A DNA stretch of 54,502 nt, taken from positions 1-54,502 of the forward strand of contig NZ_JABKCA010000031.1 of the NCBI RefSeq assembly GCF_013166655.1, read 5' to 3'. Positions 29,347 through 54,217 of this stretch are shown here, piece after piece. Under the pieces are notes generated by a model that did not search any database, was not told the DNA's origin, and saw nothing but the letters and a program-made list of their open reading frames with translations. Origin of the DNA: Lentimicrobium sp. L6 (GTDB lineage Bacteria > Bacteroidota > Bacteroidia > Bacteroidales > UBA12170). The first letter of the stretch is position 1, and each line of letters begins with the position of its first letter. Made by a program: the position numbers and the translations under genes.

Positions 29347-29347
29347 C

Positions 29348-29797: not shown

Positions 29798-30597
29798 TAT
29801 CCTCCAATATTATAAAATGAACCTACTTTATTACTGTGGCCACTTTTTGGTTTTAAACCAACAGCCATGTTATAAGCATTTTCTATACCTAATTCTTTAA
29901 CATTATATCCACTAGAACTAAATAAGCAAGGCATAATATCGCCTTTAGCTGTTAATCTTAGTCTATTGCAGATACTGCATTTTCCTCCTTCACCACCTTC
30001 TACAACGGAGAATTCTCCTTTCTCAAGAGACATTTCTTGAATGAAACGTAATTGTAATCCTTCTTTGTTACAGAAAGATTTCAAATCTTCTTTGTCAACG
30101 GTGGTGGTAGTTGGAGTAACTACACAGTTTATTTTCACAGGCTCCAAACCTGCTTCTTTTGCAGCTTGAATTCCTGCTAATACTTCTTCTAGTTGACCCA
30201 CTCTAGATAGCTTTTTAAATTTCTCAGCATCTAAACTATCCAAACTAATATTAACCCTATGAAGTCCGGCTTTTTTTAATTCTTGTGCAAATTCTGGAAG
30301 TAAGATTCCATTGGTGGTCATAGCGATATCTTCAATACCATCAATAGCTGCTATTTCTTTCACCAGACTCACAATACCTTTTCTTACTAAGGGTTCACCA
30401 CCTGTAAGTCTAATCTTTTTAATGCCTAAACTGGCTCCAACTCTGGCCACTTCAGCAATCTCTTCTAGACTGAGTATTTTTTGATGTGGAATCCAATCGA
30501 TACCCTCCTCCGGCATACAATAAGTACATCGAAGATTACAACGGTCGGTCACCGAAATCCTTAGGTAGGTGATAGGTCGTTTATAGGAATCTAACAT
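29797..30597 (-). CDS. moaA: GTP 3',8-cyclase, unusually short form
   Basis: A 266-residue radical-SAM enzyme, first step of Moco synthesis. The N-terminal cluster motif CNLRCTYC (19-26) and SAM-binding RLTGGEPLVRKG and MTTNGILL are intact; the C-terminal cluster motif KCSICNRLRLTAKGDIMPC and the terminal GG needed for activity are present too. About 50-60 residues are missing compared with typical 320-330-aa MoaA: the segment between RFIQEM and GGKCSICNRL is only about 17 residues. Both Arg of CNRLRLT that bind GTP remain. It overlaps moeA by 17 bases. Probably functional but compact; the reading frame is intact, so this is not a frameshift. Confidence 0.88.
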   Translation of the reverse strand: MLDSYKRPITYLRISVTDRCNLRCTYCMPEEGIDWIPHQKILSLEEIAEVARVGASLGIKKIRLTGGEPLVRKGIVSLVKEIAAIDGIEDIAMTTNGILLPEFAQELKKAGLHRVNISLDSLDAEKFKKLSRVGQLEEVLAGIQAAKEAGLEPVKINCVVTPTTTTVDKEDLKSFCNKEGLQLRFIQEMSLEKGEFSVVEGGEGGKCSICNRLRLTAKGDIMPCLFSSSGYNVKELGIENAYNMAVGLKPKSGHSNKVGSFYNIGG

Positions 30598-31768
30598 CGA
30601 CTTTATCTCCTTTTTTTAGTTGTTTTTTTCCAATAGGGAAGCATGCTAAAGCCTCCGCATTCTCGTAAGCATTAATATGAGCCGAACCATGATATTCCAA
30701 AGGATGCACTTCCATGTTTTCATCTACAACAACAGGTAAGAACAAATCTCTTTCACATACTTTCCTATCCATATCATTAGAGATAGGAAGTTGGAAGATT
30801 CTTGTGGCTTGACTTTTCCCCATTAATTTATTGATTAAGGGCTTGGTCAATAATTCAAATTGAATGGAGGAGGATACCGGATTACCAGATAGTCCAAATA
30901 AGAACTTATTGCCAAGCTTACCATAAAGCATAGGTTTGCCGGGCTGGATAGCTAGTTTTTCGAGTAGTATTTCTGCTTTAAGCTCTCGTAGAACCTCTTC
31001 AGAATAATCGAAGTCACCAAAGGAGGCCCCACCAGTAAAAACGATGATATCATGATCTGGAATTAATGATTTTATCTTCTCCAATATGGCTTCAGGACTA
31101 TCCTCAACTACGCCTATATTATTTGTTTCTGCTCCTAATCTGTGGCAAAGTGCTTGTATTTGATAGGAGTTGCTATTTCTTATTTGAGGAGGAGTGATGG
31201 ATTCTGATGGGTCCACTAATTCTGTTCCAGTGGCTAATATTCCAACCTTAACAGTTTTGTGAACAGGAACTTTTACCGCTCCCACATTGGCCATAATGCC
31301 AATATGTGCTGGATTAATGATGATACCTTTTTGAAGAACTACATCACCTTTCTTTTTATCTTCACCTTGGTATAAGATATTGCTTTTGCTCTTTTCTTTA
31401 AGGAATTTTATCTTTCCATTTTCTAAGGTTTCAGTTTGTTCAATCATGATTACAGTGTCTGCACCTTTTGGAACCATAGCTCCAGTCATAATGCGACTAC
31501 ATTGACCGCTTTGAACGACTTTCTGAGGAGCAATACCAGCAGGAATATGCTCAATCATCTCCAGCTCTTTAAACAAATCTTCCTGTTTCATGGCAAAACC
31601 ATCCATGGCAGATTTAGAAAAAGAAGGGACATCGGTATCTGTTTTGATATCAATTGCCAAATATCTATTTAGCGATTCGTGAATATTCACTTCTTCGGTT
31701 TCCACTGACTGCGCGTCTTGCAGAACAATTTCCAAAGCTTTACCTAATGGAGTCATCTTTTTTAACAT
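30581..31768 (-). CDS. moeA: Molybdopterin molybdenumtransferase
   Basis: A 395-residue MoeA, inserting molybdate into adenylylated molybdopterin. Signature segments are SFSKSAMDGFAM (52-63), MTGAMVPKGADTVIM, VGILATGTEL, VFTGGASFGDFDYSEEVL and FGLSGNPVSSS. The length matches the family. It is the first gene of the leftward operon moeA-moaA-moaC-MOSC/mogA and follows a structured leader resembling the Moco riboswitch. moaD, moaE and the MPT synthase sulfurylase are not in the window and must be elsewhere. Confidence 0.95.
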   Translation of the reverse strand: MLKKMTPLGKALEIVLQDAQSVETEEVNIHESLNRYLAIDIKTDTDVPSFSKSAMDGFAMKQEDLFKELEMIEHIPAGIAPQKVVQSGQCSRIMTGAMVPKGADTVIMIEQTETLENGKIKFLKEKSKSNILYQGEDKKKGDVVLQKGIIINPAHIGIMANVGAVKVPVHKTVKVGILATGTELVDPSESITPPQIRNSNSYQIQALCHRLGAETNNIGVVEDSPEAILEKIKSLIPDHDIIVFTGGASFGDFDYSEEVLRELKAEILLEKLAIQPGKPMLYGKLGNKFLFGLSGNPVSSSIQFELLTKPLINKLMGKSQATRIFQLPISNDMDRKVCERDLFLPVVVDENMEVHPLEYHGSAHINAYENAEALACFPIGKKQLKKGDKVDVRFL

Positions 31769-34931: not shown

Positions 34932-36038
34932 TTATTTGTCCCACTGCATGGCAGCAGCATTTTTAGCATCTACATCTAGTATGAAGCCTTCTACACCATT
35001 GATTTTTCCATCTTTGGTACAAGGTGTCATGGTAATAGTGTGATAACCAACGCTTCCGTCTTGGCATTTTCTCATCACCAAGCCATGTTCTATGGTCTCG
35101 CCCTTCATTACTTTTGCAAAAGAATCCTCTAATTCTTTTAAGGCTTCTTTTGAACGGGAAAGGCTATAGTGTTTTCCAATAACATCAGATGGGCTATGGT
35201 ATTTATATAACTTCACCCAAGCTTTATTTACATCTTCAAAGTTCCCTCTAGCATTTATTTTAAAATAACCAGCTCCACTATTGGCAATCACATCGCGGAA
35301 TTGATGTTCTTTATTGATCCCCATTTTCTTTTCTGTGGCTTCAAGTGCATCATCTAAGAATTTACTACTGTCTTCTTTAGACATGAGTTGTTCTTTCGTC
35401 TTTTGAAGGTTGTGTTCCATAGAGCTAATGATAAGTTCTTTGGCTTCTTTCTCATCCATCTCTTCCCAACCTGTAAGCATGGCTTTCATACTACTCATTG
35501 GCTTATGACCAGTAGTAGTTAAATAGATGTGTGCTATAACAAAGATGATAAGGAAAAAGGCACCCATGGTATGAATGGCAGCAACTGTATCTAGAGATGC
35601 CAACTCAAAAGCCATATTGGGATAATTCAAATACATATAGGCAAATCCTGACAATACCATTACTGGGATTACCAAAATTTTCAGGCCTAAATAAATCATT
35701 CTCTGTAAAGGGTTGAATTTATTATAAACTAACTTGTTTGTGGGGTGTTCGGCTCCTTTAAAAATACCTGTGATATAGTATTGTGCTTGTTCTTTAAGCA
35801 TTTTTGTAGTTGGAATATATTGTCTCCATTCACCAGTGGTGAAGTGCCAGAATATGGCAAAAACAATAAGTACTAAGAAGGCCCATGCTGCATTATCGTG
35901 AAATAGAACAGCTTCTCTATATCCAAATAATTCATAATAGCCATGGATTTCAAAGCCTGTAATAGCAAGGAATAAAATGAGCAAGGCTTGAGTCCAGTGC
36001 CAGAACCTCTCAAATATTTTATATATATATACTTTCAT
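34932..36038 (-). CDS. Cytochrome b561-type quinol oxidase fused to a C-terminal PAS domain
   Basis: A 368-residue protein. Residues 1-200 form a four-helix Ni-Fe-hydrogenase/formate-dehydrogenase/thiosulfate-reductase type cytochrome b: helices around 14-32, 48-67, 115-138 and 150-175, with haem ligand candidates His14, His65, His156 and His170. A charged linker (200-250) leads to a PAS/PAC domain at ~250-365 (GAGYFKINARGNFEDVNKAW; RKCQDGSVGYHTITMTPC; GFILDVD). The cytochrome probably passes quinol electrons to the octahaem cytochrome encoded 30 bases upstream. A PAS sensor on a respiratory subunit is unusual and suggests redox or ligand sensing. Confidence 0.85.
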   Translation of the reverse strand: MKVYIYKIFERFWHWTQALLILFLAITGFEIHGYYELFGYREAVLFHDNAAWAFLVLIVFAIFWHFTTGEWRQYIPTTKMLKEQAQYYITGIFKGAEHPTNKLVYNKFNPLQRMIYLGLKILVIPVMVLSGFAYMYLNYPNMAFELASLDTVAAIHTMGAFFLIIFVIAHIYLTTTGHKPMSSMKAMLTGWEEMDEKEAKELIISSMEHNLQKTKEQLMSKEDSSKFLDDALEATEKKMGINKEHQFRDVIANSGAGYFKINARGNFEDVNKAWVKLYKYHSPSDVIGKHYSLSRSKEALKELEDSFAKVMKGETIEHGLVMRKCQDGSVGYHTITMTPCTKDGKINGVEGFILDVDAKNAAAMQWDK

Positions 36039-36068: not shown

Positions 36069-37670
36069 CTACTTCTCTTTGTGATTAGCATTACTACCTA
36101 AAACAACTCGGATTCCGCCATGAATAACCACACCTGCTAGTGTTAATAATAATAGAAGGATTCCCATATTATCAATTAGAGCAAATCGGTCTCTTCCAGG
36201 TAAATAGAAGTCGCGAAGATTTGCCAAGCGTCCTTTTTTACTACTAGTGTGACAATCGATACATTGTAAAGAATGACTAGCGGGAGAAACTTGATGGTTT
36301 AAAGGCCAATACATTTCGGTTTCAGCGAAATCATACTCTCCACTATATGGAAGGCCTAAATAGCCCATGCCCGCTATAATGGATTCGTTCCAATCGAAAT
36401 CTACCCAATAAGCACTGTCACCTTTTACTGGCGACCATAATTTAGGTTGAACTAAGGTCATGTTTACCTTATCGTAGGGCTGTTTACCTCTGTGCACTTT
36501 AACAGGCCAAATCTTTGAACTTCCAGTGGATTCAATATTGGCATTTTTATCGGTATAAGAACCAGCTAATGAATTCATTTGGATAGGAAAAGACCTGATG
36601 GTGTCAGTAATTAGCATATGATCTGCTAAACCATTAAACCAAAAATACTCGGGAATTACATGATCGTTATAAACGAAATTCCCCTTTATACTTAGGTAAT
36701 TATGATTTCCATCCGCATCATTCTCATGTGTGGGGTGGCCGTCTTCGTCTAATCGTCCAGCTGTACTCCAGTCCCAAATCATCTTTGTAGAATTGGCTTT
36801 GGCATATTCTGGAATATGACAGGTTTGACAAGCAACACGATAACCATGGTCGTTTAGAATTTTGTCTTGATGTGGTTTGTCAGTGTGACATTGGTCACAT
36901 GTGACCCTGTTTTTGTTTTCAGAAGAAAGAGCATAAAGTTTACCAGAAATGTAGTGATTCTCTGTTACGTGGCATTCTATGCAACTCATGTCTTCACCTT
37001 CAGTGGTCATGTGAACATCTACTTCTCTAGAGCAGTCGTTCATGGCTTTGTCTAGGTCACCATGTTTTACATTGTTTCCGCCTCCACCCCAGTAGTGGCA
37101 TATCCCACAGTTTGCTCTTTCTGGAGAGCCAACACTCTGAGATATTACATTTAAGTTCAAGCCTGCAATTGGATTTCCAGCCTTTCCTTTTTTATACATT
37201 CCACTTTGATCGTGACACACCAAGCAATCAATATTTTCTTTTTTTGAGAAATCGAAACTCTTGTCTTCCCATCCATATCCAATATGACAACGAGTACATG
37301 TTTTCTCGCTGGCATTTACTCCAATACAAAAATTGTTAAGAATGTTCGTTTTACCCACTGAAACTAAGCCTCTGCCGTGAAGTTTTTCTTTACGGTCCCA
37401 AGTCCAGTGGTTGTTGGCCATGATTTCTCCATGTCTTTCGGTGTGACAGCTTAAACAAGCCAAGGTCACATCTTGTGGACGTTCGAAATCTTGTCGTAGC
37501 TCTTTAAATTTGGTATGATCTACTACTTTTTTATCCAACCTGTCGGCTTTCTTAATGTAGTTGACCAATTTGATGTCTTTATCTTGCTCCTCATCGATAT
37601 TGGTTATGTAACCAAACACAATAATCTGCGGAACAATCAAAATTAAAATTACATAAAATATCCGCTTCAT
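36069..37670 (-). CDS. Octahaem c-type cytochrome, tetrathionate-reductase (Otr) family
   Basis: A 533-residue exported multihaem cytochrome. An uncleaved-type N-terminal signal/anchor is followed by eight CxxCH motifs: CLSCH, CTRCH, CLVCH, CGICH, CIECH, CDQCH, CQTCH and CIDCH. Flanking sequences such as NNHWTWDRKEKLHGRG and the late LPGRDRFALIDNMG region fit the octahaem tetrathionate reductase family. A C-terminal hydrophobic helix (IDNMGILLLLLTLAGVVIHGG) anchors it. The family reduces tetrathionate, and in Shewanella also nitrite and hydroxylamine, so the physiological acceptor is uncertain. Context (cytochrome b, rhodaneses) favours a sulfur compound. An FNR-type box and a consensus promoter precede it. 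Confidence 0.9.
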   Translation of the reverse strand: MKRIFYVILILIVPQIIVFGYITNIDEEQDKDIKLVNYIKKADRLDKKVVDHTKFKELRQDFERPQDVTLACLSCHTERHGEIMANNHWTWDRKEKLHGRGLVSVGKTNILNNFCIGVNASEKTCTRCHIGYGWEDKSFDFSKKENIDCLVCHDQSGMYKKGKAGNPIAGLNLNVISQSVGSPERANCGICHYWGGGGNNVKHGDLDKAMNDCSREVDVHMTTEGEDMSCIECHVTENHYISGKLYALSSENKNRVTCDQCHTDKPHQDKILNDHGYRVACQTCHIPEYAKANSTKMIWDWSTAGRLDEDGHPTHENDADGNHNYLSIKGNFVYNDHVIPEYFWFNGLADHMLITDTIRSFPIQMNSLAGSYTDKNANIESTGSSKIWPVKVHRGKQPYDKVNMTLVQPKLWSPVKGDSAYWVDFDWNESIIAGMGYLGLPYSGEYDFAETEMYWPLNHQVSPASHSLQCIDCHTSSKKGRLANLRDFYLPGRDRFALIDNMGILLLLLTLAGVVIHGGIRVVLGSNANHKEK

Positions 37671-40646: not shown

Positions 40647-41036
40647 TTATGTGTTTTTATAGATGAGGTATTTCTTTTCATCTGCAAGATACTCATATTT
40701 CAGAGATTTGAGATTTTTGGTGGCAGGGCCATTTATAACATGGCCATTGACATCATATTCTGAACCATGACAAGGACATATTAATACTCCCTCTTTTATT
40801 TGATTGATATGACAACCTAGGTGGCTGCATTGTGCAGAGTAAAATGATACTTGCTCGTTTTCTATTCTTACAAATACCCCTTCAAGGAATTGCTTGTCTA
40901 TTAGTTTAGCCTCCTCAATAAATAATTGGTTTTTCGATTGAATATGTTTTTGCCTTTTTATGGAAAAGAAAGATAGCAATGCTGCAGGAAAGAGCATTGC
41001 TAAACTAAGTCTTTTAAAAAATAAGCGCCGATCCAT
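40647..41036 (-). CDS. Rieske [2Fe-2S] protein
   Basis: A 129-residue membrane-anchored iron-sulfur protein. An N-terminal helix (LSLAMLFPAALLSFF) preceded by basic MDRRLFFKRL resembles a short Tat-like anchor. The cluster motifs are CSHLGC (Cys70, His72, Cys75) and CPCHGS (Cys87, Cys89, His90): ligands Cys70, His72, Cys87, His90 and disulfide Cys75-Cys89, followed by GHVINGPATKNL. It is compact, as in menaquinol-oxidising complexes. The gene directly precedes the cytochrome b-multihaem fusion and is its expected partner. Confidence 0.93.
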   Translation of the reverse strand: MDRRLFFKRLSLAMLFPAALLSFFSIKRQKHIQSKNQLFIEEAKLIDKQFLEGVFVRIENEQVSFYSAQCSHLGCHINQIKEGVLICPCHGSEYDVNGHVINGPATKNLKSLKYEYLADEKKYLIYKNT

Positions 41037-41053
41037 ATGGAAATTATTAAATT

Positions 41054-41749
41054 CTAACCATAAAGGCTGATTTCTTTCAATTTATCAAAATTGAGGACAC
41101 TAATCATTTTGCCATCCACATCAATTAATTTTTCTTCTTTAAATTCTTTGAATATTCTGATCACACTTTCTGAAGAGAGGCCTGTTAAGTCAGCCAAATC
41201 GTTCCTGCTTATATTTAATTTGAATTTGCCTTTTTTAAAGACGTTTTCAGCCAAGCATAAAATGATATCTGCTACTCTTCCATGAGATTGTTTTCTAGAA
41301 ATACAGTAAAATCTACCATAAATTTGAGCTGTATTAGAATTTAATAAGTTGATGATTTGAGTGGCGAATTTTGCATTTTTTCTAACCAATTGTTTGAAAA
41401 TATCAACACTGATCAGTGTTGCTGTAGATTCCACATAGGTAGATACACTATATATAAAGGTGTCGTTTCCATCAAAAATAGAAGAGAGACTTACAAAATG
41501 ATTGTCTGGCACAATCTTAAGAATTAAGTCTTTTTGGTTTCCCTCTAAATATACTTTTACCAGACCCTCTTTTAAGAAAACAACATGAGAGGCAAAGGAG
41601 CCTTGTTTGGCTATAACCTCACCCTTTTTAAATTTAACATCTCTCTTGTTTGCTGACAATAAAGCGGCCTCCTCTTCGGTCAAAGAATCGAACCAATTAA
41701 AGTGTGAAGTGTTAACTATACAACTGGGAGCTGCTATGGTTTCTGTCAT
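41054..41749 (-). CDS. Crp/Fnr-family transcriptional regulator
   Basis: A 231-residue regulator: cyclic-nucleotide-binding fold at ~20-140 (VKFKKGEVIAKQGSFASHVVFLKEG), dimer helix at 140-165 and a winged HTH at ~165-220 (LNISRNDLADLTGLSSESVIRIFKEF). The recognition helix has E-S-V-I-R, keeping FNR-like Glu and final Arg and lacking the Arg before Glu typical of CRP, which agrees with TTGAT sites nearby. The Fnr [4Fe-4S] Cys set is absent (only scattered Cys), so the signal may be another redox ligand or NO via haem. It starts the leftward operon with Rieske and bc genes, and is a paralogue of 53525-54217. Confidence 0.88.
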   Translation of the reverse strand: MTETIAAPSCIVNTSHFNWFDSLTEEEAALLSANKRDVKFKKGEVIAKQGSFASHVVFLKEGLVKVYLEGNQKDLILKIVPDNHFVSLSSIFDGNDTFIYSVSTYVESTATLISVDIFKQLVRKNAKFATQIINLLNSNTAQIYGRFYCISRKQSHGRVADIILCLAENVFKKGKFKLNISRNDLADLTGLSSESVIRIFKEFKEEKLIDVDGKMISVLNFDKLKEISLYG

Positions 41750-41946: not shown

Positions 41947-43809
41947 ATGAAAAATTTTATGAAGTTTTCCTTGTTAATAGGAATGATCGCGATTTTATTT
42001 TTAAGCGCATGTAAAAAGGACGAACCGACTCCGGTTCCGGCAACCAACAATTTTGAAATATTAAAGCAATATTTGGTAGATAATACTATGGATTTACCTG
42101 ATGTATTAGGTTCATGGATTACTACAGCCGAAGCTATATATCCAAATATGGCATCTTTACATATTATTGATATTAGAAGTGCAGAACATTATGCTGCTGG
42201 TCATATCCCTGGAGCTGTTAATTCAACTTTAGCTGGGATATTAAATGAAGCTGCTAATGCCAATGGTAAACCAATTATTGTGGCTTGTTATACTGGCCAA
42301 ACGGCAGGGCATGCTGTAATGGCTTTAAGATTAAGCGGATATGCTGATGCTAAAGTGTTAAAGTGGGGTATGAGTAGCTGGAATGCTCAAACTGCAGCAA
42401 GCTGGCAAGATAATACAGGATCTATTGCTGTAGGAAACGCAAGCTGGTCTTTCCCTGATGCTATCACACCAAACCAAACATTCTCTACTCCTAATCTAAT
42501 TACAAGCGCTGAAGATGGTGCTGGTATCTTAGCAGAAAGAGTTACTGCTTTACTAACAGGTGGTATGAATATGGCTAAAAACACTGATGTTTTAGCTGCT
42601 CCATCTGATTATTTTGTAAATAATTACTGGGCTTTGACAGATGTAGAACATTATGGTCATGTAGCTGGTGCTTATAGGGTTAATCCTTTGAGCTTAGCTG
42701 ATGGTGAATATTTAAATTTAGATCCTAATGCACCAGTCGTTACTTATTGCTGGACTGGACAAACTTCTTCTATGGTTACTGCTTATTTAAAAGTTTTAGG
42801 TTATGATAGTAGAAGTTTATTATTTGGTACCAATGGAATGATTTATAGTGAGCTCGAAAGTCATAAATATAGCGATGGTGAGATTATGGGATATGAATTA
42901 GAAACTTCTACTCCTGTTACTAATGGTTTCCCAGTTTTGAAGCAATATTTAATTGATAACTCAATGGATGTAACTGAAGTTTTAGCTGCAGGTTGGATTA
43001 CTTCTTCTACTGATGTTTATGATAAAATGACAGATGCTGATGCAACAAATGATTATTATGTAATTGACATTAGAAGTGATGTTCATTTTGGTGAAGGACA
43101 TATTGATGGCGCTGTAAATTCTACTTTGGCAGATGTTCTTACAACAGCAGAAAATGCAGGTGGAAAAACTATCGTTGTTGCTTGTTATACTGGACAGACT
43201 GCCGGACATGCTGCAATGGCGCTTCGTTTAAGTGGATATCCTGATGCTAAATTAATGAAATGGGGAATGAGTTCTTGGAATGCAGCTACTTCTGCTTCTT
43301 GGGCAAATAACACTGGTAATGCTGGTACTGAAAGTGAAAGTTGGACAGATGCTCCAGGTGCTATTACGGAGAATGTAAATTATGGTGATCCTTTAATTGA
43401 TACGGAATTAACTGATGGAGCTGCTATATTAGCAAATCAGGTTCAAGTATTATTAACTGGAATGAATAAAGTAACTAATACAGATGTTTTGGCCACACCA
43501 ACCAATTATTTTATTAATAATTTTTGGGATGCTACAGATGTAGAGCATTATGGTAATATTACTGGAGCACGTAGAGTAAAGCCTCTTACATTAGCAGGTG
43601 ATGAATATCAATTCTTAAATCCAAATGCAACAGTAGTATCTTATTGCTGGACAGGTCAAACATCTTCTATGTTAACTGCATATCTTAAGGTTTTGGGTTA
43701 CGATAGTAAGAGTTTATTGTTTGGAACTAATGGAATGATTTATGATAATTTAGAAACTCATAAATTCTCAAGCGAAGAAACCAAAGATTATCCTTTGGTA
43801 ACTAAATAA
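41947..43809 (+). CDS. Lipoprotein with four tandem rhodanese domains
   Basis: A 620-residue lipoprotein (FLSAC, lipobox Cys22) containing two copies of a ~295-residue unit, each made of two rhodanese-like domains. All four catalytic-position cysteines are present: Cys114 (VACYTGQTAGHA), Cys268 (TYCWTGQTSSMV), Cys413 (VACYTGQTAGHA) and Cys567 (SYCWTGQTSSML). The loop CxTGQT is shared by all four. A rhodanese with four active sites on one chain could load and pass several sulfane sulfurs. It opens the rightward sulfur operon and is followed by a hairpin at 43822, which probably lowers downstream expression. Confidence 0.9.
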   Translation: MKNFMKFSLLIGMIAILFLSACKKDEPTPVPATNNFEILKQYLVDNTMDLPDVLGSWITTAEAIYPNMASLHIIDIRSAEHYAAGHIPGAVNSTLAGILNEAANANGKPIIVACYTGQTAGHAVMALRLSGYADAKVLKWGMSSWNAQTAASWQDNTGSIAVGNASWSFPDAITPNQTFSTPNLITSAEDGAGILAERVTALLTGGMNMAKNTDVLAAPSDYFVNNYWALTDVEHYGHVAGAYRVNPLSLADGEYLNLDPNAPVVTYCWTGQTSSMVTAYLKVLGYDSRSLLFGTNGMIYSELESHKYSDGEIMGYELETSTPVTNGFPVLKQYLIDNSMDVTEVLAAGWITSSTDVYDKMTDADATNDYYVIDIRSDVHFGEGHIDGAVNSTLADVLTTAENAGGKTIVVACYTGQTAGHAAMALRLSGYPDAKLMKWGMSSWNAATSASWANNTGNAGTESESWTDAPGAITENVNYGDPLIDTELTDGAAILANQVQVLLTGMNKVTNTDVLATPTNYFINNFWDATDVEHYGNITGARRVKPLTLAGDEYQFLNPNATVVSYCWTGQTSSMLTAYLKVLGYDSKSLLFGTNGMIYDNLETHKFSSEETKDYPLVTK

Positions 43810-45027: not shown

Positions 45028-45885
45028 ATGAAGCAGATTTTTAAAAATATCACGATAGTTATTGCCTTCTTATTTGTACTTCCAACTGTATTTGCTCAGC
45101 TTGACATAATCAACGCTGCAGAATACAAGGCATTGGTAAAATCAGATAAAAACGTAGTAACAGTGCACGCAGGCAAAGCGAAGAATTATAATGCCAACCA
45201 TCTTAAAGGGTCTATCTTAATATCATATAAAGACACTGACCAAAAAGGTGATATCAAAGGATTAATGATGAGTCCTCAAGATTTAGCCAAGTTCTTTGGC
45301 GAATCTGGAATTAGTGAAACAAATACCATTGTTCTTTATGATAATGGTTCTCAAAAATACTCCACAAGAATGTATTGGTTGCTCAAGTATTTAGGAGCAC
45401 CAAATGTGAAAATCTTACACAAAGATAAAGATGAATGGCGTAAAGCTCGTCTTGTTTTAGTAAGTACTCCTACAAAAGGAAAAGCTACCACTTTTACACC
45501 AAGTGTTGATGCTAGTATTTTAGCATTAATGGCGGATGTTGAAGCTTCAAAAGATGATGCCAATATGGTATTAATAGATGTTAGAGCAGCTAATGAATTC
45601 GATGGAACTGAAGAAAAAAGCAATGGTCATATTCCAGGTGCTATCAATATTAATCATAAAGACTTCTTAACAGAAAGTGAAGCTTTCAAATCGGCTGATG
45701 AGTTAAAGGCTTTGGTTGAAAAAGCTGGAGCAACTTCAGATAAAACAATAATTCTTTATTGTACCACATCTATTCGCGGCGCGGTAGGTTATGTAGCTTT
45801 TAAAAATATTCTTGAATATCCAAATGTGAAGCTTTATGATGGAGCTGAGCAAGAATGGATCACAAAGCATAAGTTAGAAAAGTAG
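45028..45885 (+). CDS. Exported two-domain thiosulfate/mercaptopyruvate sulfurtransferase (rhodanese)
   Basis: A 285-residue exported protein with signal peptide to about residue 24 (VFAQ). N-terminal rhodanese domain ~25-145 has Asp105 at the catalytic position (LYDNGSQKYSTR); the C-terminal domain ~165-280 has Cys245 in ILYCTTSIRGA. It is a clear paralogue of the protein at 33478-34344 (same layout and CTTSxR loop), now in the divergent operon with PhsABC. Probably a periplasmic sulfurtransferase acting on thiosulfate-derived sulfur. Two hairpins lie between it and the next gene. Confidence 0.92.
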   Translation: MKQIFKNITIVIAFLFVLPTVFAQLDIINAAEYKALVKSDKNVVTVHAGKAKNYNANHLKGSILISYKDTDQKGDIKGLMMSPQDLAKFFGESGISETNTIVLYDNGSQKYSTRMYWLLKYLGAPNVKILHKDKDEWRKARLVLVSTPTKGKATTFTPSVDASILALMADVEASKDDANMVLIDVRAANEFDGTEEKSNGHIPGAININHKDFLTESEAFKSADELKALVEKAGATSDKTIILYCTTSIRGAVGYVAFKNILEYPNVKLYDGAEQEWITKHKLEK

Positions 45886-45969: not shown

Positions 45970-48219
45970 ATGGAAAAAAGTAGAAGAAATTTTATCAAAG
46001 TTTCAGCACTTGGTGTGGGCGGAGCTATGGCATTGGGTTCCTCATGGAATTTGGTGAATGCCTCAGTATTCGATAGCAGCAAAGGCGAAGAAGTTTTGAG
46101 CTCAGAAGGCAAAAAATTAAAGAGATACCCTACCTATTGTGAGGTGTGTTTCTGGAAGTGTGCTGGTTGGGTATATTTAGATGAAGAGGGTGGTATTGAA
46201 AAAATAATTGGTAACGAAAAAGACACTCATTGCGAAGGCCGTTTATGTCCAAGAGGCACAGGTGGGGTAGGAATGTTTAGCGATCCAGATCGTTTAAAGA
46301 CACCGCTCATTAGAGTTAAAAAAGAAGATGGAGACATTTTTCAAGAAGCATCTTGGGAAGAAGCATTAGATCTAATTGCTTCTAAGTTCTCTGGCATTAA
46401 AGAAAAATATGGAGCTCCTTCGGTAGCTTTATTAAAGCATGGCTCCCCTGGGAAACATTTTGAGCATTTATTTAAAGCCTTTGGTTCCGATACCATAGGT
46501 GAACCTGCTTATGCTCAATGTCGAGGACCAAGAGAAGAAGGATGGGCTGCCACATTTGGAGGATGGGTAGGTTCACCAGAACCAACAGATATTAGAGATA
46601 CAAAATGCTTGGTGCTTATAGGTTCACACATTGGTGAGAATATGCATAATAGTCAAGTGCAGGAAATGGCGCAAGCTATTGATAAAGGTTCTTGTATAAT
46701 TACTGTAGATCCTCGTATGTCTACCGCCGCTACTAAATCTAAATATTGGCTTCCAATTAAACCCTCCACCGATATTGCCTTATTATTGGCTTGGATGCAT
46801 GTTATTATATATGATGAATTATATGATGCTAAACATATAGAGCAAAATACACATGGTTTCGAGGAACTGAAAAAACACGTTCAAACCTTCACCCCAGAAT
46901 GGGCCTATGGACATACTACCATTAAACCTGATGTGATAAGAAAGACTGCTCATGAGATGGCAAATGCTGCTCCTGCAGTCATTGTTCATCCGGGTAGACA
47001 TGTGGCTTGGTATGGAGATGATACACAAAGAGGAAGAGCTATAGCCATCCTGAATGGTTTGTTGGGTTCTTGGGGAAAACGAGGAGGCTTTTATTTGAAA
47101 GAAAGCATCTCCGTACCCAAATATCCTCACCCAAAATACCCTCATCCAAAGTGGGATTGGAAAGATTTAGCCAAGGATTATCCTATGGCAAAAATGGGTT
47201 TAACTCAAGAAGTTATTAGAGCAAGTATTCCTAGTGAAGCAGGAGAGCATCAAGTTAAAGCTTGGCTTGTTGCGGGTACTAACCTTCCCAAGACTATTCC
47301 AAACAAGGCCATTCTTAAAAAAGCTATGGAAGCCGTTGAGTTTATTGCTGTGGTAGATACTATGCCGATGGATATAGTTCAGCATGCCGATGTGGTTTTA
47401 CCCGAATGTACTTATCTGGAAAGATACGATGGCATCAGATCGGCTGCCAACAGAACTCCCTCTATTGCCTTAAGAATGCCAGCTAGAAAACCGATGTATG
47501 ATTCTAAGCCTGCTTGGTGGATAGCCAAACAACTGGGTGAAAGAATGGGCTTGGGTGACTATTTCAATTATAATGATTATAGCGAAGTTATTGATTGGCA
47601 ATTACAACAAATGGGTTCTTCATTAGAAGAAATGCAACATAAGGGAGTGAAAAACTTCCCAAGAAAATCAGGTTCTCCTTATTATCAAGATGGGGAAACC
47701 ATAAAATTGAAAACCAATACTGGTAAAATAGAGCTTTATAGTACAGAATTAGCAGCTTTAGGTTTCGACCCTATGCCGGTATTTACTAAACATCCTGAAC
47801 CAGATCCAGGTTTTTATCGTTTGATTTATGGTAGAGCGCCTATGCATACCTTTAGTCGTACGAGTAATAATGCCAACTTATCCGATTTAATGGATACAAA
47901 CTCTTTATGGATGAATCCGAAGACAGCTAATGTTTGGGGATTTTCTGCTGGGCAGGAGGTATATTTAAAAAATCAAGATGGTATTATTTCAGAGTTTCCT
48001 ATTAAAATTCGTGTTACGGAGAGAATGCGATGGGATTCTGTTTATATGGTTCATGGTTTCGGACATAGTAACCGTAAACTCACCAGAGCCTTTGGCCATG
48101 GAATTAGTGATACCGATATGATAACCAATGTAAGTATCGATCCTATTATGGGAGGTACTGGAATGCGAGGCAATTTTGTCACATTTTTAACTGAAAAACC
48201 TGAGGAGGCTGAATCATGA
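45970..48219 (+). CDS. Molybdopterin oxidoreductase, thiosulfate/polysulfide reductase catalytic subunit
   Basis: A 749-residue Tat-exported enzyme of the DMSO-reductase family. SRRNFIKV at 4-11 is the twin-arginine signal. The [4Fe-4S] motif is CEVCFWKC (Cys57, 60, 64) with LCPRG (Cys93). Cys183 in AYAQCRGPREEGW is at the position of the Mo-coordinating Cys, as in PsrA/PhsA. The C-terminal domain includes FSRTSNNANLSDL, which fits MGD binding. With the following ferredoxin and NrfD genes it forms a PhsABC/PsrABC-type complex that could reduce thiosulfate, polysulfide or tetrathionate; the order A-B-C is canonical. Its cofactor needs the Moco operon at 28-32 kb. The name phsA or psrA is not assigned. 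Confidence 0.9.
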   Translation: MEKSRRNFIKVSALGVGGAMALGSSWNLVNASVFDSSKGEEVLSSEGKKLKRYPTYCEVCFWKCAGWVYLDEEGGIEKIIGNEKDTHCEGRLCPRGTGGVGMFSDPDRLKTPLIRVKKEDGDIFQEASWEEALDLIASKFSGIKEKYGAPSVALLKHGSPGKHFEHLFKAFGSDTIGEPAYAQCRGPREEGWAATFGGWVGSPEPTDIRDTKCLVLIGSHIGENMHNSQVQEMAQAIDKGSCIITVDPRMSTAATKSKYWLPIKPSTDIALLLAWMHVIIYDELYDAKHIEQNTHGFEELKKHVQTFTPEWAYGHTTIKPDVIRKTAHEMANAAPAVIVHPGRHVAWYGDDTQRGRAIAILNGLLGSWGKRGGFYLKESISVPKYPHPKYPHPKWDWKDLAKDYPMAKMGLTQEVIRASIPSEAGEHQVKAWLVAGTNLPKTIPNKAILKKAMEAVEFIAVVDTMPMDIVQHADVVLPECTYLERYDGIRSAANRTPSIALRMPARKPMYDSKPAWWIAKQLGERMGLGDYFNYNDYSEVIDWQLQQMGSSLEEMQHKGVKNFPRKSGSPYYQDGETIKLKTNTGKIELYSTELAALGFDPMPVFTKHPEPDPGFYRLIYGRAPMHTFSRTSNNANLSDLMDTNSLWMNPKTANVWGFSAGQEVYLKNQDGIISEFPIKIRVTERMRWDSVYMVHGFGHSNRKLTRAFGHGISDTDMITNVSIDPIMGGTGMRGNFVTFLTEKPEEAES

Positions 48220-48749
48220 GATACGGAATGGCGATTGACACATTAAAATGTGTAGGCTGTGCAGACTGTGTGGTAGCCTGTCAAACAGAGAATAAAGTAC
48301 CTATTGGGTATTGTAGAGATTGGATAACGGAAACTGTTGATGGGACTTATCCATTGGTAGAAGTAGAGTTGAGATCGGAGCGTTGTAATCATTGTGAAAA
48401 TTCACCCTGTGTGCGTTGTTGTCCAACTGGAGCAAGTCATATTATTGAAGGAGGGATTGTATTAGTTACTCCAGAAGCTTGTATTGGATGTTCGGCTTGT
48501 ATTGAGTCTTGTCCTTACGATGCTCGTTATACTCATCCTTCTGGTCATGTGGACAAGTGTACTTTCTGTCACCATAGAGTGGAGAAAGGATTAAATACCG
48601 CTTGTACCTCTGTTTGCCCGACTCACTGTATTTATTTTGGTGATTTGGATAATCCAAGAAGCGATGTTAGCCTGGCTTTGAAAAACAGGAAGTATAAGGC
48701 CTTGGCACCAGAAGCAGGTACCGGACCACAAATCTTTTATTTAATCTAA
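48216..48749 (+). CDS. 4Fe-4S ferredoxin subunit, PhsB/PsrB-like
   Basis: A 177-residue electron-transfer subunit. Sixteen Cys form four cluster motifs: CVGCADCVVAC, CNHCENSPCVRCC, CIGCSACIESC and CTFCHHRV...CTSVCPTHC. The third matches the classical CxxCxxCxxxC ferredoxin pattern. It relays electrons between the NrfD-type membrane subunit and the molybdoenzyme. Its ATG overlaps the catalytic subunit stop by 4 bases (ATGA), so translation is coupled. Confidence 0.93.
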   Translation: MRYGMAIDTLKCVGCADCVVACQTENKVPIGYCRDWITETVDGTYPLVEVELRSERCNHCENSPCVRCCPTGASHIIEGGIVLVTPEACIGCSACIESCPYDARYTHPSGHVDKCTFCHHRVEKGLNTACTSVCPTHCIYFGDLDNPRSDVSLALKNRKYKALAPEAGTGPQIFYLI

Positions 48750-48761
48750 AACCTATTGATT

Positions 48762-49703
48762 ATGAGAGAAGAATTATTTGTAAGTGGAAGAAACTTACCC
48801 AATATAGATCCTCATTTACATGCATGGCATTGGCCTATTCCAGTATATCTTTTTCTCGGTGGTCTGGCTGCCGGTTTGTTATTCTTTGCCAGTTATTATA
48901 CTATTCTTGGAAAAGAGAAAACAATGCCTACCGTTGTAAAATGGGCTCCTTTTATTGTTCCTATTGCCTTAGTTGTTGGTTTAATGGCACTTTTCTATGA
49001 CCTAACCAATAAGCTATATTTTTGGCGGCTTTATACCACGCTTCGATTGGAGTCTCCCATGTCGTGGGGTGCTTGGGTATTGATGTTGGTGACACCGTTA
49101 TCGATGGTTTGGGTAGCTACCTATATCAAAGAGTTGATTCCATCTTGGGATTGGAAGTTTCCAATCATAGAAAATACCATTGAGTGGTTTGCCAAGTACA
49201 GAAAAGTGATGGCTTGGATTTTATTACCTATGAGTATCATTTTAGGTATTTATACAGGAATTTTATTGTCTGCCTTTAATGCTCGTCCACTATGGAACAA
49301 TTCCATCTTAGGACCTCTATTTTTAGTCTCTGGATTATCCACTGCTGCGGCATTGATTATCTGGACCTCTAAAGATCATGCAGAAAGACTCCTCTTCAGT
49401 AAAATCGATTTGGTTTTAATTGGAATTGAGCTTTTCATTATTGTTCATATGATGATGGGATTTATGGCCGGACCGAGTGTACAACTGGAAGCTGCTGCTT
49501 TATTGTTTGGTGGTGCATATACTGTTGTTTTTTGGGTGTTTGTAGTTATCCTAGGATTATTATTCCCCGCAGCTTTAGAAATTGCCGAATTGATGGGTAA
49601 TAAAATACCTGTAGCCGTTCCTGCAATCATGGTGTTGATGGGAGGCTTGATATTTAGATTTGTGATGGTGGAAGCCGGACAGATAACCAGATATCTCTAT
49701 TAA
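48762..49703 (+). CDS. NrfD/PsrC-type membrane anchor and quinol oxidase
   Basis: About 313 residues from the ATG at 48762; the TTG six bases upstream is less likely. Eight to nine hydrophobic helices typical of the NrfD/PsrC family, with conserved-looking PHLHAWHWPIPVYLFLGGLAAG near the start and NARPLWNNSILGPLFLVSGLSTAAAL in the middle. It should bind and oxidise menaquinol and pass electrons to the 4Fe-4S subunit. It completes the A-B-C complex; the 13-base gap between stop and start is normal for cotranscription. Confidence 0.92.
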   Translation: MREELFVSGRNLPNIDPHLHAWHWPIPVYLFLGGLAAGLLFFASYYTILGKEKTMPTVVKWAPFIVPIALVVGLMALFYDLTNKLYFWRLYTTLRLESPMSWGAWVLMLVTPLSMVWVATYIKELIPSWDWKFPIIENTIEWFAKYRKVMAWILLPMSIILGIYTGILLSAFNARPLWNNSILGPLFLVSGLSTAAALIIWTSKDHAERLLFSKIDLVLIGIELFIIVHMMMGFMAGPSVQLEAAALLFGGAYTVVFWVFVVILGLLFPAALEIAELMGNKIPVAVPAIMVLMGGLIFRFVMVEAGQITRYLY

Positions 49704-49725: not shown

Positions 49726-50259
49726 ATGAATTTCTTATTAGAAGATAGAAAAACACGGATTTATTGGAATCCATATTTTGGTGGTTTCTTGTTGGGCCTC
49801 ATCGTTATATTTTCATTTTATGTAAGTGGACGAGGAATAGGAGCCAGCGGAGGAGTAAAAAGCGCTGTAGTGGCAACAGTGAATGCTGTAGCTCCTTCAC
49901 ATGCTGAGAATTCTGCCTATTTCAGTAAATTTTTAAAAGGAGATAAAAGCCCTTTAAATACTTGGTTGGTATTTCAAATGTTGGGTGTTATTGCTGGAGC
50001 TTTTTTCTCTGGTGCCGTTAATAACCGACTAAAGATTAGAATCCAACATTCACCTAAGATTACAGCCAAAACTAGGCTCTGGTTTGTGTTATTGGGAGGT
50101 TTCCTTTTTGGAGGAGGTTCTCAATTAGCAAGAGGCTGTACCAGCGGAGGTGCTTTGAGTGGCTTTGCGGCTAACTCTTTAGGTGGACTTATTATTATGA
50201 TAAGCATATTTGGCTCCGGCTATTTGTTTGCTTATTTCTTTAGAAAATTATGGATTTAA
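49726..50259 (+). CDS. YeeE/YedE (PmpA/TsuA-like) sulfur transporter, N-terminal half
   Basis: A 177-residue membrane protein with four to five helices and the family signature GGGSQLARGCTSGGALSG near residue 130-150, in which the Cys of RGCTSG is the conserved sulfur-relay Cys of TsuA/YeeE. TsuA is a single ~330-350-aa protein; here the family is split across two genes, as in the PmpA/PmpB arrangement. Expected substrate: thiosulfate or sulfur in persulfide form. It follows the NrfD gene by 22 bases, so it belongs to the same operon. Confidence 0.85.
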   Translation: MNFLLEDRKTRIYWNPYFGGFLLGLIVIFSFYVSGRGIGASGGVKSAVVATVNAVAPSHAENSAYFSKFLKGDKSPLNTWLVFQMLGVIAGAFFSGAVNNRLKIRIQHSPKITAKTRLWFVLLGGFLFGGGSQLARGCTSGGALSGFAANSLGGLIIMISIFGSGYLFAYFFRKLWI

Positions 50260-50880: not shown

Positions 50881-51543
50881 ATGTCAAAAAGATATATATT
50901 CATATCAGTCGTATTTATAGCAATGGCTTTGGTTTTGGTTTTGCTTCCAAAACAACAAAACAGAGATGCTTTTCGACCTGATTTATTATTATTAGAAATA
51001 AATAGTGGTGAAAGATTCCTCTCAGTTGATCATATCGCTGAAAGAATTATTCAAGGGGATCCTTCTATTTTATTAGTAGATGTGAGAAGCTCAGATTTAT
51101 ATGATGAATATCATATTCCTGGCGCTATCAATATTCCGCTAAACGAGGTGTTGAACGATTCCTTGAATGCGGCTCTTCTATTGCCATTTAAAGATATTGT
51201 TTTCTATAGTAATTCTACACTAAGTGCAGATCAAGCATGGATATTGTGTAGAAGAAACAAAATGGAAAGCCAATATGTAATGGAAGGTGGACTTAATACT
51301 TGGTTCGACCATATTATGACTCCAGAGCCTCCTCAAGAAGTAGAAGGAAATGATGCCATTGCCTTGTATGAATTTAGAAAAGGGGCAAGCGTATTCTTTG
51401 GAATGCCAGCTCCTGTAGTTCAATATACTGCTCCTGAAAATACAAATGCAAAACCTGCTGCTGTTAAGAAATCCAAACCTGCTAAACAAGTGATTGAGCT
51501 TAAAAAGGTGGAAGAGGAAGAAGAGGAAGAAGAAGGCTGCTAA
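50881..51543 (+). CDS. Membrane-anchored rhodanese-like protein, catalytic Cys replaced by Ser, C-terminal Gly-Cys
   Basis: A 220-residue protein with an uncleaved N-terminal anchor (RYIFISVVFIAMALVLVLL, residues 4-22) and a single rhodanese domain at ~45-145 (ILLVDVRSSDLYDEYHIPGAINIP). The active-site loop reads IVFYSNSTLSADQAW, with Ser110 where the persulfide Cys should be. A long linker ends in eight Glu and then Gly-Cys (Cys220). A second Cys is Cys123. The rhodanese fold without Cys cannot be a normal sulfurtransferase; the terminal Cys may take over. It sits in the operon after the YeeE/YedE pair. Confidence 0.88.
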   Translation: MSKRYIFISVVFIAMALVLVLLPKQQNRDAFRPDLLLLEINSGERFLSVDHIAERIIQGDPSILLVDVRSSDLYDEYHIPGAINIPLNEVLNDSLNAALLLPFKDIVFYSNSTLSADQAWILCRRNKMESQYVMEGGLNTWFDHIMTPEPPQEVEGNDAIALYEFRKGASVFFGMPAPVVQYTAPENTNAKPAAVKKSKPAKQVIELKKVEEEEEEEEGC

Positions 51544-51575
51544 AAGTCAATTGATAATTTTTAAACGATAAAAAG

Positions 51576-52214
51576 ATGAAAGAATTAAAAAGAACAAAGA
51601 GACTTTCTGTTAGCATCATAGGCTATTTAGCTATTATCCTCATTGGTTTAATGAGTTTAAATACTCCTGGCATTTATTTTAATGTATGTGAGGGTCATGT
51701 TATGGACGAGCTTGCTGAGATGAGTAATGAAGTTTTTCCTGATGAGGCTTTGGATTATATAGAAAACAATGAGCCAGGATATTTATTTATTGATGTGAGA
51801 GATGAGTATAAATACCTTCAAAGTCATTTAGATGATGCGATAAATATACCTATGAACCAACTTTTGGAGGACGACAACATTGAGGTTTTTCAAAAGGCAC
51901 AACAAGATAGTCTAATAGTGGTCTTCTATGGTGATAGTCAAATACAGGCTAATGGAGCTTGGATGCTCATGTATCAACTTGGATATACCAATGCAAAAAC
52001 AATGTTGGGAGGCTATGATTTAGTTGCATCTCCAGATTTTGATCCTGATCTTATGGAAGCTTATTTATTAGAGGAAGCTCAATATGATTTCTATATGATT
52101 ATGGAGGAAGCTCGTGATCAAGTAGAAAACCCTATGATACTTGAGGATAAGCCTACCATGCAGATTGTTCCGGTTCAGCGAGTAGAAAACGAAATTGATG
52201 AAGGAGGATGTTAA
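51576..52214 (+). CDS. Membrane-anchored rhodanese-like protein, catalytic Cys replaced by Gly, C-terminal Gly-Gly-Cys
   Basis: A 212-residue protein related to the previous one: anchor at ~11-27 (SVSIIGYLAIILIGLM), rhodanese domain ~60-150 (YLFIDVRDEYKYLQSHLDDAINIP), and the loop VVFYGDSQIQANGAW with Gly119 in place of the catalytic Cys. The last residues are ENEIDEGGC, with Cys212 terminal; Cys38 is near the membrane (YFNVCEGH). It is the last gene of the rightward operon, 32 bases after its paralogue, and is followed by the 52248-52333 terminator. Confidence 0.88.
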   Translation: MKELKRTKRLSVSIIGYLAIILIGLMSLNTPGIYFNVCEGHVMDELAEMSNEVFPDEALDYIENNEPGYLFIDVRDEYKYLQSHLDDAINIPMNQLLEDDNIEVFQKAQQDSLIVVFYGDSQIQANGAWMLMYQLGYTNAKTMLGGYDLVASPDFDPDLMEAYLLEEAQYDFYMIMEEARDQVENPMILEDKPTMQIVPVQRVENEIDEGGC

Positions 52215-52822: not shown

Positions 52823-53509
52823 ATGGGAAATGCAAATTGTAAGAAGTGTGATAAAATCTCTTGTGCAGCACTAAACTTAAGTACAACTCAGTTGGAATTG
52901 CAAAATTCTACCTGCAATGAGTCTACTATAAAAGCGGGTGATGTGATTCTATCGGAAGGCTCACTAACCTCTCATATTATTTATCTACGATCAGGATTAG
53001 TTAAAGAATTTCAACGTGTTGAGAATTCGAAACATGAATATATCATGAACTTGATTAAAGAAAAAGCTTATTTGGGTTTACACTCTTTATTTGGAGATAA
53101 GTATAATCACTATTCATATACCGCCCTTACCGATGTAAGTGTGTGTTATATAGATAGAAACATATTTAAAACCCTCTTGCTTGAAAACGGGCAGTTTGGG
53201 TATAAAATATTAGAGGCTGTGAGTAGAGATAGTTTAAATACCTATCACCGCTTTGTAACTCAGCACCAGAAGAAAATATTTGGAAAGTTAGCCGATGCTT
53301 TGCTCTATTTCTCAAAGAATATTTATAACAGTGAGAGTTTTTATTTGCATTTAAACAGAAATGAAATTTCCTATCTAATAGGGACTAGTAGGGAGAGCGT
53401 ATCCAAACAACTTAGACAATTTGAGGAAGAGGGGCTAATCACCATGAAGGGACGAATTGTAAACATATTAAAACCACTTGAGCTCGAGCGCATCAGCAAA
53501 TTTGGATAA
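52823..53509 (+). CDS. Crp/Fnr-family regulator with N-terminal Cys cluster
   Basis: A 228-residue regulator. The N terminus NCKKCDKISC (Cys6, 9, 14) plus Cys31 can form an FNR-type [4Fe-4S] site. The sensor fold spans ~25-135 (IKAGDVILSEGSLTSHIIYLRSG) and the winged HTH ~165-225 (LHLNRNEISYLIGTSRESVSKQLRQF). The recognition helix has S-R-E-S-V-S-K, the Arg-Glu pair of CRP (SRETVGR) with Lys for the final Arg, which agrees with the perfect TGTGA-N6-TCACA palindrome in its own leader. It likely senses redox state or oxygen and represses itself. The next regulator starts 15 bases later, so they are cotranscribed. Confidence 0.87.
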   Translation: MGNANCKKCDKISCAALNLSTTQLELQNSTCNESTIKAGDVILSEGSLTSHIIYLRSGLVKEFQRVENSKHEYIMNLIKEKAYLGLHSLFGDKYNHYSYTALTDVSVCYIDRNIFKTLLLENGQFGYKILEAVSRDSLNTYHRFVTQHQKKIFGKLADALLYFSKNIYNSESFYLHLNRNEISYLIGTSRESVSKQLRQFEEEGLITMKGRIVNILKPLELERISKFG

Positions 53510-53524
53510 AGGAAGGGATTAATT

Positions 53525-54217
53525 ATGGCTAAACCAGTGTATACTAAAGAATGTTTAGAAGCATTCTGTGGAAATCTTTCAACTTGTGAACTCACTGTTG
53601 AGGATATTGAATTATTAAATCAGCATAGGGTTGAGGTAAAATATAATAAAGGGGAAAATGTTTGTAAACAAGGTTCTTTTGCTAATCATTTGATTTATAT
53701 CAAAGAAGGTTTGTCAAAATCCTATTTAGAAGAGGATAACAAGGTTCAGATCATATGTATTAATCCGGCAGACTGTCTTCTCGGAATTCAATCAATGACC
53801 ACTTCTAGTATTTTTCATTATTCTGTAGCAGCATTAGAAGATGTTTATGCTTGTTTGTTCGATATGGATGTAGTCAGAACCATTGCAAAGAGAAATCCGG
53901 GTTTTGGATATGCCTTATTGTCACAAGCTAATGAAGCACAGATACTTACCTATGATCGATTTTATAGCTTAACGATGAAGCAATTACATGGTAGAATGGC
54001 CGATATTATTCTTTGTTTAACCAATAGAGTATATAAAGCCGATCAATTTATTGTTAATCTTTCTAGGAAAGACTTAGCAGAACTCACTGCCATGTCGAAC
54101 GAGTCTGCAACCCGAATTCTTAAGGATTTTAAGGATGATAAAATCATAGATTTGGATGGGAAAGCCATCACAATTTTGGATAAAAAGAAACTAGTTCAGG
54201 TCAGTAGGTTTGGTTAA
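53525..54217 (+). CDS. Crp/Fnr-family transcriptional regulator
   Basis: A 230-residue regulator. N-terminal Cys10, Cys15, Cys21 (TKECLEAFCGNLSTC) and Cys47 could bind a cluster. The sensor fold has VKYNKGENVCKQGSFANHLIYIKEG, and the HTH LSRKDLAELTAMSNESATRILKDF has the recognition residues N-E-S-A-T-R, FNR-like (Glu and final Arg, no Arg before Glu). HGRMADIILCL and the C-terminal half are closely similar to the regulator at 41054-41749, so the two are paralogues probably recognising TTGAT-type sites. Signal unknown. Confidence 0.85.
   Translation: MAKPVYTKECLEAFCGNLSTCELTVEDIELLNQHRVEVKYNKGENVCKQGSFANHLIYIKEGLSKSYLEEDNKVQIICINPADCLLGIQSMTTSSIFHYSVAALEDVYACLFDMDVVRTIAKRNPGFGYALLSQANEAQILTYDRFYSLTMKQLHGRMADIILCLTNRVYKADQFIVNLSRKDLAELTAMSNESATRILKDFKDDKIIDLDGKAITILDKKKLVQVSRFG

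Follow-up and report, generated by a model that had tools for sequence, protein, structure and literature searches.

Two adjacent genes in the window, that is, the whole stretch of 54,502 nucleotides from Lentimicrobium sp. L6 analyzed here, encode rhodanese-fold proteins (P1 and P2) with a cysteine at the very end of the chain, and they belong to a widespread and apparently undescribed bacterial family of such tail-cysteine proteins. With a probability of roughly 0.6, we take P1 and P2 to be periplasmic, membrane-tethered pseudo-rhodaneses that carry sulfur on the tail cysteine and serve a redox enzyme and a YeeE channel.

Tail-cysteine rhodaneses in the window

The sequence-only reading of the window had described two neighboring rhodaneses that lack the catalytic cysteine and end in Gly-Cys, together with a third one that keeps it and ends in the same way; all three were borne out, and the phenomenon proved to be larger than noted there. 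The open reading frames of P1 (RHD*-1; 50881..51543, + strand) and P2 (RHD*-2; 51576..52214, + strand) are present where that reading had placed them. P1, a member of the family, is 220 aa long and starts with a membrane helix, which is followed by the rhodanese domain and by a flexible tail with Cys220 as its last residue; its loop position is occupied by Ser110, its cysteines are residues 123 and 220, and its C-terminus reads EEEEEEEEGC. P2, a tandem copy of P1 with a length of 212 aa, has Gly119 replacing the loop cysteine, cysteines at residues 38 and 212, and the C-terminus IDEGGC. The third protein, P3 (34389..34901, − strand; 170 aa), is a lipoprotein-type rhodanese with a lipoprotein-type Cys21, the retained loop Cys114 and the terminal Cys170, which closes the ending GEVGGC. 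Its grouping with P1 and P2 holds as far as the tail cysteine is concerned, but P3 is otherwise a different case, having loop and tail cysteines together and adjoining an octaheme cytochrome gene. Orthologues of P3 were found in only one of 296 genomes of the phylum (itself) at 1e-18 and in three of 198 genomes of the class (itself included) at 1e-14; one of the two further class matches (L197/L218) carries the tail, and the other, with 32% identity, does not. The orthologue in L218 retains both the loop cysteine and the terminal cysteine.

In the Pfam scan, PF00581 (Rhodanese) was the sole family matched by P1, P2 and P3, with scores of 54, 52 and 76 bits, respectively, against a cut-off of 22.2, while the SoxY domain (PF13501) and the DsrC family were absent from all three. 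The rhodanese fold of P1 is further supported by its AlphaFold model and PDB matches. No curated NCBIfam family matched P1, P2 or P3 above its cut-off (P2, for example, scored 31.7 bits against PspE, with a cut-off of 102 bits), and a PHROGs search with P1 gave no match. A generic tail signal was also considered and rejected, as GGC-stop, a pattern that does not cover the tails of P1 and P2, has six matches in the window genome, of which only P3 ends an open reading frame longer than 22 aa.

On the + strand ahead of P1 lie a tandem rhodanese with a signal-peptide-like start and a single cysteine, Cys245, in the loop of domain 2 (45028..45885), a PhsA/PsrA-like molybdopterin enzyme with a Tat-like leader (45970..48219; top NCBIfam PhsA at 445 bits, below the 694-bit cut-off), a PsrB-type iron-sulfur subunit, named by motif and position and with homologues in the same place (48216..48749), an NrfD/PsrC-type membrane subunit from the Pfam scan (48756..49703), YeeE1, which is PmpA-like and carries an RGCTSG cysteine (49726..50259), and a gene between YeeE1 and P1 (50279..50869). 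The YeeE1 and YeeE2 of the window match the C-terminal and N-terminal halves of the Pfam YeeE/YedE model, respectively. On the − strand, P3 adjoins a cytochrome b561-type membrane protein with a PAS domain (34932..36038) and an octaheme cytochrome with eight CxxCH motifs (36069..37670; PF11783, 'Cytochrome c bacterial'), which we presume to resemble octaheme tetrathionate reductase.

Several other genes of the window were also recorded. At 37950-41036, a Rieske gene adjoins that of a large cytochrome in which cytochrome b is joined to a domain containing 11 CxxCH motifs. Among the 67 loci, many of which have little upstream DNA, 13 have relatives of this cytochrome ahead of the rhodanese gene. 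A lipoprotein-type protein with four rhodanese domains (41947-43809) is located upstream of the Mo operon. Genes for the Mo cofactor (MoaB/MOSC-, MoaC-, MoaA- and MoeA-like by eye; 28411-31768) adjoin the sulfur cluster, and MobA-like genes, also called by eye, were seen close to the operon in relatives. Three Crp-like regulators flank the sulfur clusters (41054-41749, 52823-53509 and 53525-54217), the last called by Pfam and the other two by blast to the first.

Distribution of the family and conservation of the terminal cysteine

Seeds were obtained with the whole of P1, tail included, against 296 genomes of the window's phylum, 23 of which match at 1e-12 (the own genome included), and all later searches were made with tail-less profiles. 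Profile A1, built from the seed matches, gave strong matches (E 1.3e-32 or better) in 31 of the 395 genomes searched. Profile A2, scanned against a named genome collection, yielded 67 loci, which by the names of their records are mostly from Ignavibacteria/Melioribacter-type MAGs (a cultured carrier, Stygiobacter electus, is also named), with further loci from Gemmatimonadetes, Acidobacteria, Opitutaceae, Eisenbacteria, one Spirochaetae and two Woeseiaceae; in four of the 67 the gene runs off the contig, and these were left out of the counts, leaving 63 complete genes. The family is not confined to Bacteroidota, and the search range of anaerobic Bacteroidota proposed by the sequence-only reading was too narrow, as other phyla carry it as well. 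In a proteobacterial sample, two of 249 genomes match at 1e-16, one of them being the centre itself. The removal of near-copies with identical last 150 residues reduced 177 sequences to 145, and the family set consists of the 86 unique sequences (by last 150 residues) that score at least 100 bits.

The tail cysteine is invariant across the family, and the loop cysteine is lost. In the alignment, the terminal column is cysteine in 85 of the 86 members, and the sole exception is L077, where a frameshift or an assembly error has disrupted the gene and the distal open frame reads KKKKREGC. The loop column holds serine in 57 members, glycine in 14, alanine in 11 and cysteine in four (L031, L037, L121 and L162), so that the loop cysteine is absent from 82 of 86, and no column other than the terminal one has more than four cysteines. 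The tail-less scan agrees, with 62 of the 63 complete genes ending in cysteine and the remaining one in SCG; two family tails (GGCS and SCG) extend one residue past the cysteine. Among 306 neighboring open reading frames of at least 150 aa, called mechanically and some of them spurious, 11 end in cysteine and 10 of these belong to the family, leaving one in 296 outside it; the cysteine ending of family genes is not due to chance. The conservation of this residue in orthologues, on which the sequence-only reading had staked its claim, therefore stands.

Among 104 genes ending in Gly-Cys, the cysteine codon is TGT in 58 and TGC in 46, and four glycine codons and three stop codons all occur; this mixture indicates that selection acts on the protein. 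A reading of the Cys-stop as selenocysteine was rejected, with TAA or TAG following the cysteine in 66 of the 104 genes.

The tail had been called acidic, which is right for the window proteins but not for the family, where 81 of 86 members have a tail charge of at least +2 and the extremes are strongly basic and strongly acidic, the surroundings of the cysteine varying from KKKKKE to EEEEEE. The distance from the FGG motif that closes the domain to the cysteine is 30 to 52 residues, with a median of 41. Electrostatic attraction between a basic tail and an acidic loop was rejected as a mode of docking, tail charge and loop charge being uncorrelated (r −0.16).

Natural fusions to YeeE2 carry the same tail. 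Some of the weaker matches of profile A1 are frames of about 395-400 aa that combine YeeE2 and the rhodanese in one chain, and the best 20 of this length that were not already in the set, chosen without knowledge of their ends, all carry the tail cysteine (20/20). Together with L041, L100, L122 and L153 they form a fusion-type set of 24, in which the open reading frame of L100 starts within the last YeeE2 helix. The tail cysteine is present in 24 of 24, as the last residue in 21 and one residue earlier in three (GGCG, GGCS and GGCS), and none of the 24 has a loop cysteine as read from the alignment. Of 20 control loci picked as generic-looking rhodaneses, 18 have no tail, and the two tail-bearing ones turned out to be family, L100 as the YeeE2-fusion fragment and L118 as an operon member. 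The valid tests are these 20 frames picked by length and these 20 loci picked as generic rhodaneses; the division of sequences below 100 bits into fusion or tandem types versus controls is not a test, because the GGC ending defined it.

Operon contexts

The operon around the family gene is conserved, the usual order being a PhsA/PsrA-like Mo enzyme, PsrB, NrfD, YeeE1, YeeE2 and the rhodanese. Co-occurrence with YeeE/YedE and PhsABC genes had been proposed as a check, and all five partner genes are present in 47 of the 48 loci with more than 5.5 kb of upstream sequence. The YeeE pair is found in 61 of the 63 loci with more than 1.3 kb upstream, with YeeE2 fused in four of them. The two exceptions are L160, where no gene of the window's operon was found next to the rhodanese, and L184, where PsrB and NrfD immediately precede the rhodanese on the contig.

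A second type of operon accompanies the fusions and comprises an octaheme cytochrome, a cytochrome b561, YeeE1 and the YeeE2-rhodanese. It is complete in all seven regions considered (L200-L206) and occurs also in L122 and in L219, a genome from the phylum of Woeseiaceae whose protein ends SGGCA; the PF11783 scan covers the octaheme copy of the window only. There was no Mo enzyme among the genes found in the fusion operons. The adjacency of P3 to octaheme and b561 genes is repeated in L218. A third arrangement was seen in L207-L210, with a tandem rhodanese, YeeE1, YeeE2 and a rhodanese ending in RMGC, and neither a Mo complex nor an octaheme gene was found in 18 kb. In the genome G296 (99% complete; L212:7-5148), the Mo complex is followed directly by two tail rhodaneses, where the contig ends, and a YeeE family match was found nowhere in this genome by a search that was positive in G134 and in the window genome. 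G296 keeps the tail with the redox enzyme alone, suggesting that the redox enzyme rather than the channel is the indispensable partner there, while L207-L210, the reverse case, suggest that the channel is.

The operon occurs once more in the window genome, in diverged form, on C67 (G000:C67; L046:7850-15223), and this copy is followed by a lipoprotein-type double rhodanese. The last 12 residues of this protein are identical to those of the P1-like single rhodanese two genes away, both ending KRKKKEVEGGCS, with 33 of 36 bases alike. Matching tails within one operon were also found in the tandem copies of G134 (11 of the 12 last residues and 31 of 36 bases in common) and in the tail rhodaneses of G296 (12 of 12 residues and 36 of 36 bases); the G296 tails are not counted as independent selection because their DNA is identical. 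Outside the tails, the rhodaneses of the same operon are only 26-29% identical in C67, G134 and G296. The matching tails could reflect either one partner shared within each operon or gene conversion; against such matching, the second rhodanese of C67, which lies between the two genes, has no such tail and ends EECPDLN.

P3 and the C67 double rhodanese fall among the catalytic rhodaneses in a tree with 77 domain rows, which include 25 of the 86 members of the family and 12 of the 24 fusions; one window domain was dropped because it had no match. An independent gain of the tail in these two is not claimed, because a single clade of tail-bearers was not rejected (p-AU 0.147) over the 109 columns available.

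Structure and predicted membrane side

The AlphaFold model of P1 (pLDDT 80) consists of an N-terminal helix, the rhodanese domain and a tail of low confidence (residues 175-220, 51403..51540, + strand; block means 39-66) with cysteine as its last residue, and most of its PDB matches, which include YgaP, are rhodaneses. The family proteins are predicted to be membrane-tethered, either by the N-terminal helix or by fusion to YeeE2. From sequence features, the rhodanese domain is predicted to lie on the periplasmic side. The positive-inside count favors an N-in, C-out orientation in 47 of 70 proteins, is equal in 13 and speaks against it in 10. In the fusion model, the last YeeE2 helix (165-191) is followed by one extra helix (202-220) and then by the rhodanese, and the loop between the two helices is basic, which would make the fused rhodanese periplasmic if the end of YeeE2 is inside. 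Lipoprotein-type leaders were read from the sequences of P3 and of the second rhodanese of the C67 operon.

Proposed role and alternative explanations

In the role that we propose, the rhodanese loop would no longer be the persulfide site and the domain would act as a tethered handle, the conserved thiol sitting at the very end of a flexible, charged extension. A donor, which may be thiosulfate, polysulfide or a catalytic rhodanese (the tandem rhodanese at 45028-45885 is a possible one), would load sulfane sulfur onto the tail cysteine, and the tail would offer it to the operon's redox enzyme, mostly the PhsA/PsrA-like Mo enzyme and, in the fusion loci, the octaheme cytochrome. Where the YeeE1-YeeE2 channel is present, sulfur might also be exchanged with this channel, which the rhodanese adjoins or to which it is fused. 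The sulfur-shuttle idea of the sequence-only reading is partly supported, by the conserved terminal cysteine, the loss of the loop cysteine and the operon, but its nearest precedent, DsrC, is replaced below. Several observations run counter to a carrier role: four of the 86 members keep the loop cysteine, P3 keeps both loop and tail cysteines, two family tails and three fusions run one residue past the cysteine, the second rhodanese of C67 is tail-less, tail charge varies widely and does not follow loop charge, operon genes were not found beside the protein of L160, L207-L210 show YeeE but neither redox enzyme in 18 kb, and the positive-inside count is equal or adverse in 23 of 70 proteins.

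The best of the alternatives, though we regard it as unlikely, is that the terminal cysteine forms a covalent tether, either through a disulfide with a partner (PsrA, YeeE or another rhodanese copy) or through a modification, and so fixes the complex. An invariant cysteine at the extreme end of a flexible linker would be equally suitable for this, and tandem copies with matching tails could pair with one another. However, a membrane helix or the YeeE2 fusion already anchors the protein, and the tail remains constant though the redox partner switches from the Mo enzyme to the octaheme cytochrome.

Somewhat more doubtful still is a recognition or sorting signal that another protein reads or cleaves, with a cysteine devoid of sulfur chemistry. 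The tail is short, conserved, charged, C-terminal and alike within one operon, as such a signal might be, but its residue is always cysteine while the surroundings change, and the rhodanese loop cysteine was lost simultaneously. Searches with two patterns of the tail motif moreover located it at the end of no other sizeable gene in the carrier genomes. The pattern K-(K/R/E)-x-E-G-C-stop has 19 matches in 18 of the 28 carrier genomes, the other 10 having different tails or spellings outside the pattern; 16 of the 19 are ends of family genes (one being the broken gene), and the remaining three lie in frames of 10-15 codons, two of them without a stop there.

FdhD hands sulfur to the Mo cofactor, and a similar maturation factor for the neighboring enzyme would suit the presence of a Mo enzyme in 47 of 48 loci, yet this is improbable: Tat enzymes are matured inside, the predicted side of the family domain is the periplasm, the genes found in the fusion operons include an octaheme cytochrome but no Mo enzyme, and none is seen in the 18 kb covered for L207-L210. 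The pairing of one module with either a Mo enzyme or a multihaem enzyme suits a carrier better than cofactor maturation. The handling of selenium instead of sulfur is the least probable of all, since selD exceeds the cut-off in only four of the 28 carrier genomes, although YedE-type proteins are known in selenium metabolism and the window genome itself has two selD matches above the cut-off.

If the carrier reading is true, it explains how bound sulfane sulfur is handed over between the enzymes of sulfur respiration and a membrane channel in many, mostly uncultured bacteria (Ignavibacteria, other Bacteroidota, Acidobacteria and Gemmatimonadetes), and the half-size YeeE/YedE channels gain a defined partner. 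The annotation 'rhodanese, sulfurtransferase' may mislead on the mechanism for tail-cysteine genes.

Comparison with known systems

The sequence-only reading knew of no described family with this tail, and a literature search, made mainly in non-subscription full texts and hence no proof of novelty, likewise yielded no description of it; the tail is also absent from the passages considered of PMC13047784, PMC11582611, PMC10812762, PMC6067878, PMC11073785, PMC12998232, PMC4288042 and PMC9516567. P1 and P2 have the fold of rhodaneses but not their catalytic loop cysteine, which is present only in P3.

In DsrC/TusE, sulfur is carried on a cysteine close to the tip of a mobile arm at the C-terminus, and the protein is cytoplasmic with a fold other than that of rhodaneses. 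The arm cysteine is alike, but P1-P3 have no Pfam match to DsrC, and SoxY, which is periplasmic, is the nearer precedent. The arm of SoxY works with several enzymes, including the Mo enzyme SoxCD. According to PMC6067878, SoxY binds its sulfur substrate through the cysteine of a glycine-flanked C-terminal motif, the GGCGG arm. A C-terminal arm with a conserved cysteine is present in the family, and this cysteine may likewise bind sulfur. SoxY differs in belonging to another protein family and in ending GGCGG, as P1-P3 match PF00581 only. The presence of SoxYZ alongside the family was rejected: SoxY was above the cut-off in none of the 28 carrier genomes (one match lay below it), and as none of the 14 control genomes matched either, the sensitivity of this search is not demonstrated.

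Sud of Wolinella (PDB 1qxn, 'sulfide dehydrogenase') has a rhodanese fold that is matched by the family profile with an E of 7.8e-7. It is a periplasmic rhodanese that supplies polysulfide sulfur to Psr, a PsrABC-type complex, and uses its loop cysteine. The family shares the PsrABC-like operon but not the loop cysteine, and it further differs from Sud in being membrane-tethered with a cysteine tail. YgaP, found among the structure matches (2mrm and 5hbo), is likewise a rhodanese-fold protein of the inner membrane, but it keeps its loop cysteine (Cys63 according to the titles of the solved entries).

The YeeE-YeeD and PmpAB/YedE1E2 systems contain channels of the same family as YeeE1 and YeeE2 of the window. 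YedE1E2, made of half-size YeeE proteins, is an importer of zero-valent sulfur with two essential cysteines (PMC10812762), PmpA and PmpB correspond to the C-half and N-half of YeeE, respectively (PMC11582611), and YeeE has a dedicated sulfur-relay partner that may be fused to it (PMC11582611, PMC11073785). This partner, YeeD/TsuB, is a cytoplasmic TusA-like protein (PMC13047784, PMC11582611), whereas in the present family its place is taken by a rhodanese that is predicted to be periplasmic. We give even odds to the broader proposal that these proteins form, in genomes without a SoxY match above the cut-off, a further class of carrier beside SoxYZ and DsrC, in which a membrane-anchored rhodanese handle with a thiol at the tip of its tail would move sulfane sulfur between redox enzymes of the periplasm that can replace one another (Mo or octaheme) and, in loci that have it, YeeE, with P3 as a self-loading version.
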